A stretch of 64,000 nt of DNA from Roseinatronobacter thiooxidans (GTDB lineage Bacteria; Pseudomonadota; Alphaproteobacteria; Rhodobacterales; Rhodobacteraceae): assembly GCF_001870675.1 (NCBI RefSeq), contig NZ_MEHT01000009.1, forward strand, positions 248,001-312,000, in the 5' to 3' direction. Below the pieces are notes generated by a model, which was not told the origin of the DNA, searched no databases, and was given only the letters and a program-made list of their open reading frames with translations. The position numbers and the translations under genes were made by a program. Shown piece by piece: positions 11,495 through 62,576 of this stretch (its first letter is position 1; each line of letters begins with the position of its first letter).

Positions 11495-12499
11495 ATGACA
11501 ATCACCATCGGCATCAACGGTTTCGGACGTATCGGGCGCTGTACCCTGGCCCATATCGCTGAAAGTGCGCGCAATGATGTCGAGGTTGTCAGGATCAACG
11601 CGACCGGACCTATTGAAACGAATGCGCATCTGCTGAAATACGATTCCGTGCATGGGCGTTTCCCCGGCACCATCCGCGTTGACGGCGACACGCTGGATCT
11701 GGGGCGCGGGCCGATCAAGGTCATGTCCACTTATGACCCAAGCGAGTTGGATTGGGATGGCGTCGATGTGGTGCTGGAATGCACCGGCAAATTCAATGAC
11801 CGCGACAAGGCAGCAGTGCATTTGGGCCGTGGTGCCAGCCGTGTGCTTGTGTCCGCCCCTGCCAAAAATGCAGATGCAACCATCGTTTATGGCGTAAACC
11901 ACCGTCTGCTGCGCCCCGAGCATCTGGTCGTGTCGAACGGGTCTTGTACCACCAATTGTCTTGCCCCGCTGGCCAAGGTTCTCAATGATGCGATCGGTAT
12001 TGAATCGGGCATCATGACGACAGTGCACAGCTATACGGGCGACCAGCCGACACTGGACCGCCGCCACAAAGACCTGTACCGCGCCCGCGCCGCTGCAATG
12101 GCAATGATCCCCACATCGACCGGCGCTGCGAAAGCACTGGGCGAGGTGTTGCCAGAACTGGCAGGCAAGCTGGATGGCACCGCCCTACGCGTGCCCACCC
12201 CAAATGTCAGCGCTGTGGACCTGACCTTTCAAGCCGCGCGCGATGTGACTGTGGCCGATGTAAACGAGATTATGCGCGAGGCCGCCGCCGGTCCAATGGG
12301 TGCCGTATTGTCCTATGATCCAGAGCCGAAAGTCTCGATCGATTTCAACCACACGCCATATTCTTCGATCTTTGCGCCTGACCAGACCAAAGTTGTGGGC
12401 CGCCGCACTGTGCGCGTTTTGGCATGGTATGACAATGAATGGGGCTTTTCGTGCCGCATGGCAGATGTCGCCGCCGCAATGGGCCGCCTGATCCACTGA
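11495..12499 (+). CDS. gap: Type I GAPDH, predicted NADP(H)-preferring
   Basis: Glyceraldehyde-3-phosphate dehydrogenase interconverts glyceraldehyde 3-phosphate and 1,3-bisphosphoglycerate. The Rossmann motif NGFGRIGR (residues 8-15) and the catalytic segment SCTTNCLAP are intact, and length (334) is normal. Where NAD enzymes carry an acidic residue after strand beta-2, this protein has Ala36 (INATG). At the Leu-Pro pair that closes on the adenosine ribose in NAD enzymes it has Arg189-Arg190. Both changes favour NADP(H), so an anabolic, GapB-like role is inferred. It is a paralogue of the GAPDH 0.9 kb downstream, which keeps Asp36. A gcggag ribosome site precedes the ATG. Confidence 0.95.
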   Translation: MTITIGINGFGRIGRCTLAHIAESARNDVEVVRINATGPIETNAHLLKYDSVHGRFPGTIRVDGDTLDLGRGPIKVMSTYDPSELDWDGVDVVLECTGKFNDRDKAAVHLGRGASRVLVSAPAKNADATIVYGVNHRLLRPEHLVVSNGSCTTNCLAPLAKVLNDAIGIESGIMTTVHSYTGDQPTLDRRHKDLYRARAAAMAMIPTSTGAAKALGEVLPELAGKLDGTALRVPTPNVSAVDLTFQAARDVTVADVNEIMREAAAGPMGAVLSYDPEPKVSIDFNHTPYSSIFAPDQTKVVGRRTVRVLAWYDNEWGFSCRMADVAAAMGRLIH

Positions 12500-12567
12500 T
12501 CCTAACGAGTGTTCCGCGCCTGACACAATAGCCCGCCATGCGCGACCAAGGTCAGCTTTGCGGGACT

Positions 12568-12779
12568 TTTCAGCCGTTCGCGCGGAGTCGAGGCGCGTAG
12601 CGCCGCCGCGCATCGCCGGGCCGTCCCCCGGCACGGCGATTTGGCTTGGCTACGCGCAAAGCCCTGATCTTCCGCGGATTTGGCTGGCATAAAGTTATCC
12701 AGCATAGATCGGGGATCGCCGCACCACGGCCCGACGCTGCGCAGCTTGGGTCACGTCTTCAATGTCCGCCAAACCCTCA
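12568..12779 (+). repeat. Dispersed structured repeat, copy 1
   Basis: About 212 bases closely matching copy 2 (14903-15113) on the same strand and copies 3 and 4 (42834-43046, 62365-62576) on the opposite strand. The core hairpin (12612-12640) has arms ATCGCCG and CGGCGAT extended by GCCG/CGGC, with one G-A mismatch. A motif reading GGATTTGGCTGGCATAAAG follows. The outer ends are rough inverted repeats of each other (GCGTAGCGCC against GACGCTGCGC). No reading frame is conserved. It lies between gap1 and the rhodanese gene. Confidence 0.85.
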
Positions 12780-12833
12780 AAGCAATCATTGCGAATCCTT
12801 TGTCAGGGGTCTGACACCAGTCAAAACGAGTAT

Positions 12834-12867
12834 GCAAAACCCGCCGGCCCGCTGGCGGGTTTTGCAT
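12834..12867. terminator. Intrinsic terminator downstream of gap1
   Basis: A 13-bp perfect stem (TGCAAAACCCGCC and its complement) encloses GGCCCGCT. It lies about 330 bases after the gap1 stop and beyond repeat copy 1. The gap1 messenger therefore probably carries the repeat in its 3' untranslated region. Confidence 0.8.
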
Positions 12868-12939
12868 TTGTGATATTTTGTCGCCTTTCATCCGCATGGC
12901 AAAACGAGTACACATTCAAAAAATCATAAGGGTCTATTC

Positions 12940-13353
12940 ATGTTCCGCCTTATCGCCTCACTGCTGGCCACAGTCTTGCTCATCACCCCTGTCGCGGCGC
13001 AACAGGTCTACACCGCCCAGCCATCTGCGCAGCAATTGCAAGAGGCACCTGTTCTGCTGGTCGATATCCGCCAGCCGCATGAATGGGTCGAAACTGGCGT
13101 CTTGCCCAATGCGATTTTGCTGCCCTTCAACGATCCGGCCAGTTTTCTCAAAGCCTTGCAACCCCATCTGCAAGCCGGCCAACCCGTTGCGCTGATCTGC
13201 CGGACAGGCAACCGCACCGCGCGCGCCGCGCAGATCATTGCGCCTGAACTGGGTGTTCCGGTCATTGACGTGGCTGGCGGTATCTTCCGGCTGATGGGCG
13301 CTGGATATACCCCTGCCCAGCCCACGCGTGCCCAGGGCTGCACAATCTGCTAG
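12940..13353 (+). CDS. Periplasmic single-domain rhodanese
   Basis: The 137-residue product has a signal peptide (about 1-21, ending Val-Ala-Ala-Gln) and one rhodanese domain. The active-site loop is CRTGNR, with the catalytic cysteine near residue 87 that would carry the persulfide. The last residues contain a second cysteine pair (GCTIC), which may be redox active. Rhodaneses transfer sulfane sulfur, but the donor and acceptor here are unknown. It sits alone between the two GAPDH genes, separated from the first by the repeat and terminator. Its ribosome site is weak. Confidence 0.85.
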   Translation: MFRLIASLLATVLLITPVAAQQVYTAQPSAQQLQEAPVLLVDIRQPHEWVETGVLPNAILLPFNDPASFLKALQPHLQAGQPVALICRTGNRTARAAQIIAPELGVPVIDVAGGIFRLMGAGYTPAQPTRAQGCTIC

Positions 13354-13402
13354 ACTGCCTGCGATGGCTTGCGCAACGCACTTGAAAAGCCTTGCCGTGA
13401 TG

Positions 13403-13416
13403 TGTTAGCGCAAACA
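13403..13416. promoter_or_regulatory. LacI-type operator before gap2
   Basis: TGTTAGCGCAAACA matches 13 of 14 positions of the LacI-family consensus TGTTAGCGCTAACA. It ends 23 bases before the gap2 start, where a bound repressor would block transcription. In Rhodobacter sphaeroides the LacI-family regulator CceR controls central carbon genes. Assigning this site to a CceR orthologue is inference. Confidence 0.6.
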
Positions 13417-13439
13417 CAAATTCATGCGAGGAGATGACG

Positions 13440-14441
13440 ATGACCACACGTCTTGCAATCAACGGGTTTGGCCGGATCGGGCGGCTTGTGCTTCGCGCGC
13501 TGGTCGAACAGCAGCGCGATGATCTGGAGATCGTCGCCATCAACGATCTTGGCCCGGTCGAAAGCAACGCCCATCTGCTGCGCTTCGACTCGATCCATGG
13601 CAGATTCCCCACTGATGTAACCGTAGACGGCACCAGCATCGATGTCGGGCGCGGCCCCATCATGGTCACTGCAGAACGCGACCCAGCCAACCTGCCTTGG
13701 AATGACATTGACATCGTGCTGGAATGCACCGGCATTTTCACCGATGCCGACAAGGCCAAGCTGCATCTGGGGCGCGCGGGCAAGGTTCTGGTCTCGGCAC
13801 CCTCAAAAGGGGCGGATAAAACCATTGTATATGGCGTGAACCATGGCACCCTGACGGCAGGCGACAGGATCGTGTCAAACGGGTCCTGCACCACCAATTG
13901 TCTGGCGCCTGTGGCAAAGGTGCTGAATGACGCAGTGGGCATTTCGCGCGGGTTTATGACCACGATCCACAGCTATACCGGCGACCAGCCCACGCTGGAC
14001 ACAATGCACAAAGACATGTACCGCGCCCGCGCCGCCGCCATGAGCATGATCCCCACCAGCACTGGTGCTGCCAAAGCTGTGGGGCTGGTGCTGCCGGAAC
14101 TCGACGGCAAGCTGGACGGGGTCGCCATCCGCGTGCCCACGCCCAATGTCTCGGTCGTGGACCTGACATTTGAAGCCGCGCGCGATGTGACAGTGGACGA
14201 GATCAATGCCGCAATGCGCGCCGCCGCCAGTGATGGCCCGCTCAAAGGCGTGCTTGGCGTGACCGACCAGCCCAATGTGTCGATGGATTTCAACCATGAT
14301 CCGCGCTCGTCCATCTTCCATCTGGACCAGACCAAAGTTCTGGAGGGGCGCATGGTGCGCGTGCTGTCATGGTACGATAATGAATGGGGCTTTTCAAACC
14401 GCATGCTGGACACGGCAGCGGCCATGGCACGCGCAAAGTAA
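13440..14441 (+). CDS. gap: Type I GAPDH, NAD-type
   Basis: This is the glycolytic glyceraldehyde-3-phosphate dehydrogenase. Like its paralogue it has NGFGRIGR at residues 8-15 and the catalytic SCTTNCLAP segment. It keeps Asp36 (INDLG), the acidic residue that binds the adenosine ribose hydroxyls of NAD and excludes NADP. I chose the ATG at 13440 because gaggag lies six bases before it. The in-frame ATG at 13434 directly abuts that site. The predicted length is 333 residues. A LacI-type operator lies 24-37 bases upstream. Two hairpins (14466-14491 and near 14628-14660) follow the stop. Confidence 0.96.
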
Positions 14442-14465
14442 GGCGCGCGGCGGTGAAGGTTGTAA

Positions 14466-14491
14466 AGGGGCCGCAGCTTCGGCTGTGGCCC
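14466..14491 (+). terminator. Hairpin after gap2
   Basis: GGGCCGCAG and its near complement enclose CTTCGG, a very stable tetraloop context. It lacks a real U-tract, so it may stabilise the 3' end or cause only partial termination. Confidence 0.4.
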
Positions 14492-14663
14492 ATAGCGATA
14501 CGGTGGCCAGTGCAGGCGCCGTTACATTAAAGCGTGCTGTTACCGCTCACATATGCGCCCACCGCAAGGCGGGCTTGCAACTCTGAATATTGTGCTGCGC
14601 TGCGGCATACCCCATCTTCGGGGGGAAGGGGCCATTCCGGCCCCACCCCAGATGGAGGTTGCC

Positions 14664-14828
14664 ATGACAACACTTCTTGCACGTATCCAAGACCGCCTGC
14701 GCAAGCGCGCAGCCTATGTCCGTACCAAATCAGCGCTGGAAAATATGCCGCTAGAGGTGGCGATTGATCTGGACCTGTACAAGCCAGATGCCGACAAGAT
14801 CGCGGCACGCGCGGTATATGGGCACTAA
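14664..14828 (+). CDS. Small basic protein, 54 residues
   Basis: The ATG is preceded by a strong gatggagg site seven bases away, which argues for real translation. The N-terminal half is a basic amphipathic helix with repeated Arg and Lys. The C-terminal half is acidic and ends in Ala-Arg-Ala-Val-Tyr-Gly-His. The layout recalls the short arginine-rich DUF1127 proteins of alphaproteobacteria, but the match is too loose to assert. It follows the second GAPDH gene on the same strand. Function is unknown. Confidence 0.7.
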   Translation: MTTLLARIQDRLRKRAAYVRTKSALENMPLEVAIDLDLYKPDADKIAARAVYGH

Positions 14829-14902
14829 TTTCTGCCGCCTGCCCCTTTGTTCCAGCGCGCACATGTGACGCGCGGTGTCTCAAAGGGCGGCTATGTGGCA
14901 CT

Positions 14903-15113
14903 CTTCAGCAGTTCGCGCGGAAACAAGGCGCGTAGCGCCGCCGCGCATCGCCGGGCCGTCCCCCGGCACGGCGATTTGGCTTGGCTATGCGCAAAGCCGT
15001 GATCTTTCGCGGATTTGGCTGGCATAAAGTGCTGTAGCATAAAGTCACGCTCGCCGCGCCACGGCCCGACGCTGCGCGGGTTGATCCACTTCCCCACTGT
15101 CCGAAAAGCCCTC
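14903..15113 (+). repeat. Dispersed structured repeat, copy 2
   Basis: This is the closest relative of copy 1. From the GTTCGCGCGG start through the core hairpin (14947-14975) to the GGCATAAAG motif the two differ at only a few positions. It then continues through the shared CACGGCCCGACGCTGCGC segment. It lies in the convergent gap between the 54-residue gene and coaD. Confidence 0.85.
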
Positions 15114-15163
15114 GAAACCGTCCATCAAGTTCTAGAGCCACAAGCCGACCACCGCCCCCTGCT

Positions 15164-15661
15164 TCAGCTTGCCCCGAATTTCGCCAGCAGCGCCTCGCGG
15201 ATCGGGGCTGAGACAAATTTGGACACATCCCCCCCCAAACGCGCAATTTCCTTGACCAGTTTTGACGCAATCGCCTGATGGCGGGCCTCTGCCATCAGAA
15301 ATACGGTTTCGATACTGTCATCCATCGCGCGGTTCATGCCAACCATCTGGAATTCGTATTCAAAATCTGTCACCGCGCGCAATCCACGGATGATGATGGA
15401 CGCGCCCACATCATGCGCGCAATCGATCAGCAGATTCTCGAACGGGTGGGCGACAATATCCACCCCTGTGCTGGTGCGAAGGTCGGCCACTTCCGCCTCG
15501 ATCATCGCCACACGCTCCTCCAACGTGAAGAGCGGCCCCTTGTCACGGTTTATCGCAACCCCGATCACCAGCCGGTCCACAAGCTGGGCCGCACGGGTGA
15601 TAATATCACGATGCCCCAGCGTCAGCGGGTCAAAAGTCCCCGGATACAGTCCGATGCGCAT
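15164..15661 (-). CDS. coaD: Phosphopantetheine adenylyltransferase CoaD
   Basis: CoaD joins AMP from ATP to 4'-phosphopantetheine, the penultimate step of coenzyme A synthesis. The nucleotidyltransferase motif TFDPLTLGH lies near the N-terminus, with its HxGH-like histidine. Further landmarks are IIRGLRAVTDFEYE and a C-terminal VSAPIREAL helix. I chose the ATG at 15661 because the G-rich ribosome site sits about six bases upstream. The ATG at 15667 directly abuts it. The 165-residue length is normal. Confidence 0.96.
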   Translation of the reverse strand: MRIGLYPGTFDPLTLGHRDIITRAAQLVDRLVIGVAINRDKGPLFTLEERVAMIEAEVADLRTSTGVDIVAHPFENLLIDCAHDVGASIIIRGLRAVTDFEYEFQMVGMNRAMDDSIETVFLMAEARHQAIASKLVKEIARLGGDVSKFVSAPIREALLAKFGAS

Positions 15662-42652: not shown

Positions 42653-43187
42653 GGACTATATATAGCGCGAAGCATCTGGCAAGCATTTAGATCGCACCAA
42701 ATGTCGCATGATCATGTGCTAAGAGGGAACTGCGACACCCATATGACAGATCGCGGGACGCAGTGCTGCAACATTGGGCACTTGGCCGGAATAGCTAAAA
42801 GGGCGTGTGCCAGTTGGCAGAAGCTCTACAATGAGGGGTTGGGGGGTGTTGGAAAGCTGGCCCAAGCCGCGTAGCGTCGGGCCGCGGTGCGGCGATCCTC
42901 GATTTGGGCTATAGCACTTTATGCTTGCCAAATCCTCGAAAGATCAAGGCTTTGTACGGTGCCAAGCCAAATCGCCGTGCCGTCGGGGCGGCCCGGCGAT
43001 GCGCGGCGGCGCTACGCACATTGACTCCGCGCGTGGGGGCAACTGAAACGCTGCCACGTCTCGCGCTTGCAGCGTCCAAGCGCGAAGGCTTCATGGGGCG
43101 GCGACGTTGATGGCTGGCGGGATAAACAGTCGTCCAACACCCCAAACCGCCGCCAAACGCCTCCCCCCGATAAGCGCCAAGCGGGCC
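42653..43187. other. Intergenic region holding repeat copy 3
   Basis: 535 bases without a gene. Apart from the repeat, I see no ribosome site, RNA gene or strong terminator. The HNH gene promoter should lie in the left part. Confidence 0.5.
42834..43046 (-). repeat. Dispersed structured repeat, copy 3
   Basis: Inverse orientation relative to copies 1 and 2. The order of shared blocks is kept: GCGTCGGGCCG, GCACTTTATGC, AAATCGCCGTGCCG, core hairpin (42971-43000), GCGCGGCGGCGCTACGC. It differs more from copies 1 and 2 than they do from each other. It lies downstream of the alpha/beta hydrolase gene. Confidence 0.8.
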
Positions 43188-55279: not shown

Positions 55280-55356
55280 TGGTCGGGGCGATAGGATTCG
55301 AACCTACGACCTACGGTACCCAAAACCGTCGCGCTACCAAGCTGCGCCACGCCCCG
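55280..55356 (-). tRNA. tRNA-Pro (anticodon TGG)
   Basis: Read leftward it has acceptor arms CGGGGCG and CGCCCCG, a D-loop with AGCTTGGTAGC, anticodon loop TTTGGGT, and T-loop GGTTCGAATCC. The 3' ACCA is encoded (55283-55280). A 77-base tRNA with all arms. Confidence 0.97.
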
Positions 55357-62364: not shown

Positions 62365-62576
62365 AAGGGCTTCGGGGACATTGAAGAGGTGACCCAAGCC
62401 GCGCAGCGTCGGGCCGTAGTGCGGCGATGCTCGCTTCCTGCTACAGCACTTTATGCCAGCCAAATCCGCGTATGAACAAGGCTTTGCGCGTAGCCAAGCC
62501 AAATCGCCGTGCCGGGGTACGGCACGGCGATGCGCGGCGGCCTACGGCCTGTACTCCGCGCAGGCGAATGGCTGAG
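62365..62576 (-). repeat. Dispersed structured repeat, copy 4
   Basis: Same orientation as copy 3. Its core hairpin (62503-62531) has a perfect twelve-base stem, ATCGCCGTGCCG. The position mismatched in copies 1 to 3 is a T-A pair here. It lies between holC and doxX. Confidence 0.82.

Follow-up and report, generated by a model that had tools for sequence, protein, structure and literature searches.

Insertion-sequence MITEs such as Correia and RUP carry no gene and have inverted ends. Correia, RUP and others are named among the insertion-sequence MITEs in an excerpt of PMC10969869, which also gives a placement in 3′-UTRs for QMITE2. ERIC (RU-1) and YPAL (RU-2, 168 bp) are, in the excerpts available, short foldable intergenic repeats that are treated as non-autonomous, occur in tens to hundreds of copies and are confined to one bacterial group, the enterobacteria (PMC2759123, PMC10969869); TA at the ends and TA duplications are described for them in an excerpt of PMC2759123. 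REP/BIME sequences are palindromic, intergenic and located mainly between convergent or unidirectional genes, the REPs having 20–40 bp and being tagged GTAG or CGTC (excerpt of PMC3733652), and REPs go together with RAYT genes (excerpt of PMC2817692).

The repeat described here works like the ERIC and MITE elements, membership among them being unproven. Compared by description with the excerpts on ERIC and YPAL, it is likewise short, foldable, intergenic, regarded as non-autonomous, present in tens of copies and limited to one bacterial group, but this group is the Rhodobacterales instead of the enterobacteria, and in place of the TA ends and duplications given there it has no duplication at the borders of its core and outer ends with CTAG, which contains TA. 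With REP/BIME as excerpted it shares the palindromic sequence, the intergenic position and the placement at gene ends, whereas its length of about 167 nt and a RAYT domain that did not exceed the cut-off in the same-genus genomes tested distinguish it from the REPs. Like insertion-sequence MITEs, it contains no gene and has inverted ends in part of the copies, and its 3′ placement is that of QMITE2 as excerpted; unlike them, it is conserved in an internal core and not in its ends, and no parent insertion sequence was found (DDE_3 searched). A conserved, covarying fold of near-constant length is shared with the structured RNAs of Rfam, none of whose families matched the core (up to E 5, 4 loci), and the difference to an intrinsic terminator is that no conserved T-run follows a stem at either border. 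The explanation preferred here, with a probability of roughly two in three, is that Rhodobacterales harbor a small selfish mobile element, non-autonomous and copied behind stop codons by an enzyme from elsewhere.

The window, i.e., the whole stretch of 64,000 nucleotides of Roseinatronobacter thiooxidans that was analyzed, contains four copies at the places and on the strands claimed by the initial annotation, with the same blocks and a mean column identity of 81% over an alignment of 286 columns. Each of them lies between called genes, as had been claimed. The following features were assigned:

12580–12747, plus strand: copy 1, conserved core of 168 nt (alignment and own-genome search)
14915–15082, plus strand: copy 2, conserved core with convergent genes on either side (alignment and own-genome search)
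42864–43032, minus strand: copy 3, conserved core (alignment and own-genome search)
62396–62561, minus strand: copy 4, conserved core (alignment and own-genome search)
12510–12816, plus strand: copy 1, inserted unit in full, outer arms included, with TGTTCCGCGCCTGACAC as left end and an inverted right end (exact ends inferred by eye)
12504–12509, no strand: AACGAG, possible but unproven target duplication, repeated at 12825–12830
12605–12624, plus strand: copy 1, 5′ arm of the long-range stem, pairing with 12726–12745 (inverted repeat and covariation)
12726–12745, plus strand: copy 1, 3′ arm of the long-range stem (inverted repeat and covariation)

The copy 1 unit sits between the stop codon of a GAPDH gene and a terminator-like hairpin that is also present in relatives. 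The rough inverted ends that had been noticed belong to this larger unit of roughly 307–330 bp, which is recognizable in some copies only. The statement that no reading frame is present stands for the one strand tested, which was chosen for its conserved ATG and on which no frame is conserved. A small peptide starting at the conserved CATAAAG (minus-strand ATG) was rejected, as the start is missing in 33 of 188 copies, many frames run into a stop after 6–10 codons and a 3-base periodicity is absent in the copies with a start-like ATG.

The core starts with GCGCGGA, finishes with GGCTT and comprises 165–169 nt in most copies, some being shorter and some containing inserts. In 186 copies reaching both core ends, the information drops from 2.0 bits to 0.1–0.6 bits at the left border and from 1.0–1.8 bits to 0.1–0.6 bits at the right border. 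The own genome (3.50 Mb) contains 42 BLAST matches with E-values from 1.5e-139 to 1.3e-7, the last two being short fragments. At least 41 distinct copies cover at least 120 of the 168 profile positions, matches below this coverage being left out of the copy counts, and the own-genome counts are lower bounds with 40 of 70 first-look candidates scored. The few hundred copies per genome extrapolated previously are too high all the same, and the four copies in 64 kb represent a local excess compared with one per about 85 kb genome-wide.

The covariance model R1 was built from 54 cores. One search for the core covered 100 of 109 loci. With a covariance-model search of relatives, proposed in the initial annotation, the core was found in at least 113 of 296 genomes of the family, own genome counted, the matches listed being full-length, and in at least 2 of 337 genomes of a class-wide draw, namely the own genome and one other member of the family; both searches used the best 8–9 candidates per genome and stricter filters, and absence holds at that sensitivity only. 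When copy 1 was used for BLAST, at least 26 of the 35 further genomes from the genus gave a match and none of 24 genomes outside it (at most 12 candidates per genome). Several weak same-genus matches are partial and comprise the arm alone in L054 and L055. An exact 31-letter pattern of the 3′ end occurs in 70 stretches among the named records, from Roseinatronobacter, Natronohydrobacter, Pseudaestuariivita, Pseudosulfitobacter, Alkalilacustris and other Rhodobacteraceae. Among 72,556 plasmid records, 92 carry the element (91 Pseudosulfitobacter, 1 Salipiger). Carriage by phages or viruses was rejected, with 0 of 50,697 phage records matching the element and 0 viral contigs containing one exact pattern of it.

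The only Rfam family match at gathering score in the window is a tRNA gene on the minus strand (55283–55356), and nothing was found inside the core up to E 5 (4 loci). The titles and abstract starts of the openly licensed papers searched include no description of the repeat, and the passages of the structured RNA surveys PMC2864571 and PMC8632094 and of the stem-loop families PMC2267715 that were available do not contain it. The earlier remark that no name has been described is in agreement with this, although an older description may exist. The element is a widespread Rhodobacterales repeat that is missing from Rfam and apparently unnamed in the literature searched.

In the predicted fold, GCCGCGC....GGGCCG[T/C] near the 5′ end pairs with [A/G]CGGCCCGACGCTGCGCGGC at the 3′ end to form a long-range stem, inside which CGGCGAT pairs with ATCGCCG. 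The arms of copy 1 are an inverted repeat of 20 nt with 85% complementarity. Folded alone, copy 1 is moderately stabler than shuffles (z −2.2, −2.3), so that the case for the conserved hairpin core reported initially is carried by covariation. In alignment A2, 94.8% of the cells are paired compared with a shuffled mean of 94.3%, which is barely above the shuffles (12 of 500 as high), but its covariation score, 0.066, was reached by none of the 500 shuffles (mean 0.054). With the partners shifted by 1–3 columns, 32–45% remain paired and the scores do not go beyond 0.038. The top pair by corrected mutual information is 40–150, which is G-C, C-G or A-T and always paired in 183 cores reaching both core ends; it is followed by 44–146, and 41–149 and 59–136 rank high too. 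Column pairs that cannot pair, e.g., 32–37 and 52–150, also score high, so relatedness contributes to the signal.

The same scan backs a competing local pairing (41–51, 38–54). CCGCGC at 26–31 can pair with the GCGCGG of the 5′ or of the 3′ side, and CGGCGAT with either ATCGCCG copy, so that one middle segment permits two alternative folds, and we infer that both actually form. For the A-T class of pair 40–150 only the long-range pair is possible, because columns 40 and 52 hold A and G there. It was also considered that the arms are kept complementary copy by copy; this is unsupported, as the arms of one copy pair no better together than with the arms of other copies (p 0.095–0.59 in four groups). 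Some cores have an additional hairpin, roughly 24 nt long, in their 5′ arm, namely those in L191, L207, L221 and NZ_CP054608.1 (near 6748 and 31880).

Variants found in one copy (private) were compared with variants found in two or more copies (shared) in the three genomes G000, G021 and G007. The stem columns contain 66 private and 16 shared variants, the other columns 168 private and 278 shared (odds ratio 6.8, p = 6e-13), in a comparison that is limited by the relatedness of the copies and by the unequal base composition of stems and loops, and whose pattern could also arise by gene conversion. The direction is the same in all three genomes (G000 p = 4.5e-5, G021 p = 0.012, G007 p = 2.8e-8). 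Of 72 private events in pairs of the long-range stem, 48 break the pair, 20 lead to G-T and 4 stay Watson-Crick. This suggests that the structure is needed for being copied and decays once the copy is inserted, i.e., that the fold is kept for making new copies and not for use by the host. Two stem definitions were used; with the wider stem set, private changes are rarer in the stems of G021 (p = 0.004) and not different in G000 or G007, and the depletion in G021 hints at selection on single copies there, which counts against the copying reading. Mismatches that are shared or present in other genomes comprise 24 A-C and 10 G-T, private ones 18 and 19, respectively. This bias, which counts related sequences, weakly hints at the minus strand as the functional strand, and the assignment was set aside. 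Contrasting private with shared variants is a simple test that can be applied to other repeat families of any kind to decide whether the host or the element benefits from a fold.

For the analysis of the placement, 202 distinct copies were available, of which 191 have two called neighbors and one lies inside a called gene; the 11 copies lacking two called neighbors or lying inside a called gene were dropped. The neighbors are convergent for 111 copies, tandem for 78 and divergent for 2, compared with 15, 62 and 17 of 94 background gaps called in the same way (Fisher p = 6e-12), the background being small (three stretches) and possibly including element-bearing gaps in stretch L236. Tandem copies have no strand preference (34 and 44 in the two orientations), and in 62 of these 78 the upstream stop codon is closer than the downstream start codon. 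The distance to the stop codon peaks at 60–80 bp, about the length of one outer arm. TAG makes up 89 of 218 stops that face the element within 130 bp and 15 of 62 in neighbors facing away (p = 0.017). No conserved T-run is present in the consensus of 186 copies beyond either core border.

Empty sites were found as well. Between the anchors 12490 and 12940, the copy 1 site has 449 bp in the window and 137–153 bp in relatives, and all nine alignable relatives possess a similar terminator-like hairpin and no element. For the copy sites, 12 loci of relatives were given, with both anchors present in nine for copy 1 and in two for copy 2. R1 detected no core in eight of the nine copy 1 loci, and the ninth (L246) matches only at the copy 2 site. 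At the latter site, the relative G021 has convergent genes 3 bp apart and no element (TGACCCTTA, by eye), and G020 contains a divergent copy (76.5 bits).

These data bear on the explanation that the element is functional for the host, as a bidirectional transcription terminator or a 3′-UTR RNA maintained at gene ends. The preponderance of convergent neighbors with only 2 divergent pairs, the conserved and covarying structure and the occupation of the same gene ends in several species would be expected from it. However, the T-run is missing at both borders, copy 1 precedes an intact terminator-like hairpin, nine relatives manage without the element, the copy 2 genes of G021 do so at a spacing of 3 bp (by eye), private mutations break the stems and the tandem copies show no strand preference. 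A host function is consequently regarded as quite improbable.

The selfish mobile element is also favored by the re-use of sites. The own genome and G021 have 17 gene 3′ ends facing an element in common, compared with about 0.9 expected for random draws from 3,300 genes; these are 20 facing ends minus 3 5′ ends, and both ends of one gap are not independent. Behind these shared 3′ ends and the three 5′ ends are 14 copy pairs, 10 of which are oppositely oriented. If only vertical inheritance were at work, orientations should agree; it does not account for these opposite copies, which are therefore counted for the mobile element. Opposite orientation fits an independent insertion into favored gaps or an inversion in place. 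For gaps with both neighbors orthologous, 8 opposite and 3 same orientations were obtained over all genome pairs (ten of the cases aligned), and 8 of 11 is not different from 1:1 (p = 0.23).

A second element type was found on Pseudosulfitobacter plasmids. At site C, the gap behind the gene for CoA-transferase subunit B, strain H46 carries the known core in minus orientation, and SC33-90 and DSM 107133 carry the second type in plus orientation; in the anchors, H46 shares 97–99% identity with SC33-90 and 92% with DSM 107133. At a neighboring site, SM26-46 has the second type, and H46 and SC33-90 have mosaics of both (by eye). The order of parts is that of the first type, with different stems, GCCCGG/CCGGGC in the 5′ hairpin and a predicted long-range stem of 17 bp (z −3.5), and the two alternative pairings are present in both types. 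R1, which was built without the second type, gives such copies 45–60 bits at full length:

L375, 729–892: second-type copy matched by R1
L376, 493–656: second-type copy matched by R1
L374, 6804–6967: second-type copy matched by R1
L374, 15378–15541: second-type copy matched by R1

A search with the second type yielded 138 plasmid records (129 Pseudosulfitobacter, 8 Leisingera, 1 Paroceanicella); among the matches listed, those from Leisingera extend over roughly one quarter of its length. There are named marine strains that differ in their state at one site. In SM26-46, a segment at about 13783–15358 of CP069022.1 is 92% identical to a Paracoccus record of an IS1182-family transposase and adjoins an element copy. 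At a site occupied by oppositely oriented cores in the own genome and G021, another GC-rich hairpin sequence is located in G026:C46 (L129 / L148), which may be a third type of element.

The outer ends were searched by mismatch counts. Allowing up to 3 mismatches, GTGTTCGCCACCTGACA was found 31 times in the own genome, compared with 8 times for a reversed control, and TGTTCGCCACCTGACA with at most 5 mismatches in 73 element flanks, compared with 29 control windows located 500–700 bp away. In the 18 best flanks (at most 3 mismatches), CTAG-like bases precede TGTTCGCCACCTGACA (C 14, T 13, A 12 and G 13 of 18). The outer ends are recognizable in a minority of the flanks and are also found in another genus (G091). 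Equal 4-mers on both sides are present in two copies (L038 CTAG, L235 CTAT); in other copies with two outer ends, the flanking 4-mers do not match (both by eye). Within the grid searched, the core borders of 186 copies give no prominent target-site duplication.

These ends argue for a classical MITE derived from an insertion sequence of the cut-and-paste (DDE) kind, in which the outer CTAG inverted ends move and the core is a passenger. The inverted arrangement of the TGTTCGCCACCTGACA ends beside the CTAG-like bases in 18 flanks, their occurrence in another genus, the equal 4-mers of L038 and L235 and the enrichment of TAG stops agree with it, but conservation is far higher in the core than in the ends, whereas a MITE should show the opposite. 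Moreover, DDE_3 (IS630-type), the only DDE family searched, is without a match in G000, G007, G019, G008 and G020, and none of 10 own-genome regions inspected contains an inverted pair of ends around a gene. An IS630 MITE was rejected, as DDE_3 is missing in these five element-bearing genomes, including G000 and G007, and a MITE of this class in general is unlikely. In kind, the MITE likeness noted at the outset is supported by a short, non-coding, dispersed repeat with empty sites and some inverted ends with CTAG, the duplication being unproven and no partner transposase being found.

The likeness to REP/BIME, also put forward initially, is not supported as far as membership is concerned. Movement by a RAYT (Y1 tyrosine transposase) would match the palindromic sequence, the intergenic position at gene 3′ ends and the tandem arrays in G007, but the unit greatly exceeds a REP in length. 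In addition, the RAYT domain Y1_Tnp is without a match in G000, G007, G021 and G019, four genomes of the genus that are rich in copies, and yields a fragment below the cut-off in G020. Y1_Tnp exceeds the cut-off in 2 of 13 element-bearing genomes. With no Y1_Tnp over the cut-off in the five genomes of the genus, RAYT was rejected, and a REP/BIME system is very improbable.

Mobility as a selfish element is backed by dispersed copies with sharp ends, empty sites, different types at one site of closely related plasmids and a strong preference for gene 3′ ends with both orientations occurring. Counted against it are the lack of a mobilizing enzyme in the searches for Y1_Tnp and DDE_3, the lack of a duplication at the core borders and the presence of outer ends in a minority of flanks. 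Mechanistically, an enzyme supplied from elsewhere would copy the element into the space just behind stop codons. What the copying machinery recognizes may be the fold, either of RNA or of single-stranded DNA, and the complete unit probably ends with the outer arms that terminate in CTAG-TGTTCGCCACCTGACA. The mutation pattern shows that both the 5′ hairpin and the long-range stem are kept in spreading lineages and decay in single copies. A more detailed version of the selfish element is tentative and rather doubtful: it would be copied via a folded single-stranded intermediate (RNA or ssDNA), with the three competing segments as a recognition switch, would re-enter the same gene ends in either orientation and would need neither a DDE insertion sequence nor a RAYT. 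If the fold is indeed the substrate for copying, these genomes are a place to find a new mobilization mechanism.

Further observations concern single genomes. The window contains two GAPDH genes with a gene for a rhodanese-domain protein between them (11495–14441). An arm-only left remnant without a core is present in L079 at about 1459–1531 (G000:C45:12959-13030) behind a frame ending with TAG and is probably a truncated copy. In the Natronohydrobacter genome G007, 76 R1 matches occur in 2.9 Mb, and direct tandem arrays of the core comprise 2–3 units with a period of mostly about 250–265 bp (L224, L213, L205, L203, L219, L191). G021 has 86 matches to IS630-type DDE_3 transposases on several contigs. 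All 34 element matches listed for G021 are located on the contig of 3.77 Mb, the other contigs of this 4.7 Mb genome having none (p = 6e-4), and none of the 42 matches listed for the own genome, with 40 of 70 candidates scored, is located on the large contigs C44 (335 kb), C10, C7 and C2. The element may therefore avoid secondary replicons in this genus, though it is common on Pseudosulfitobacter plasmids.
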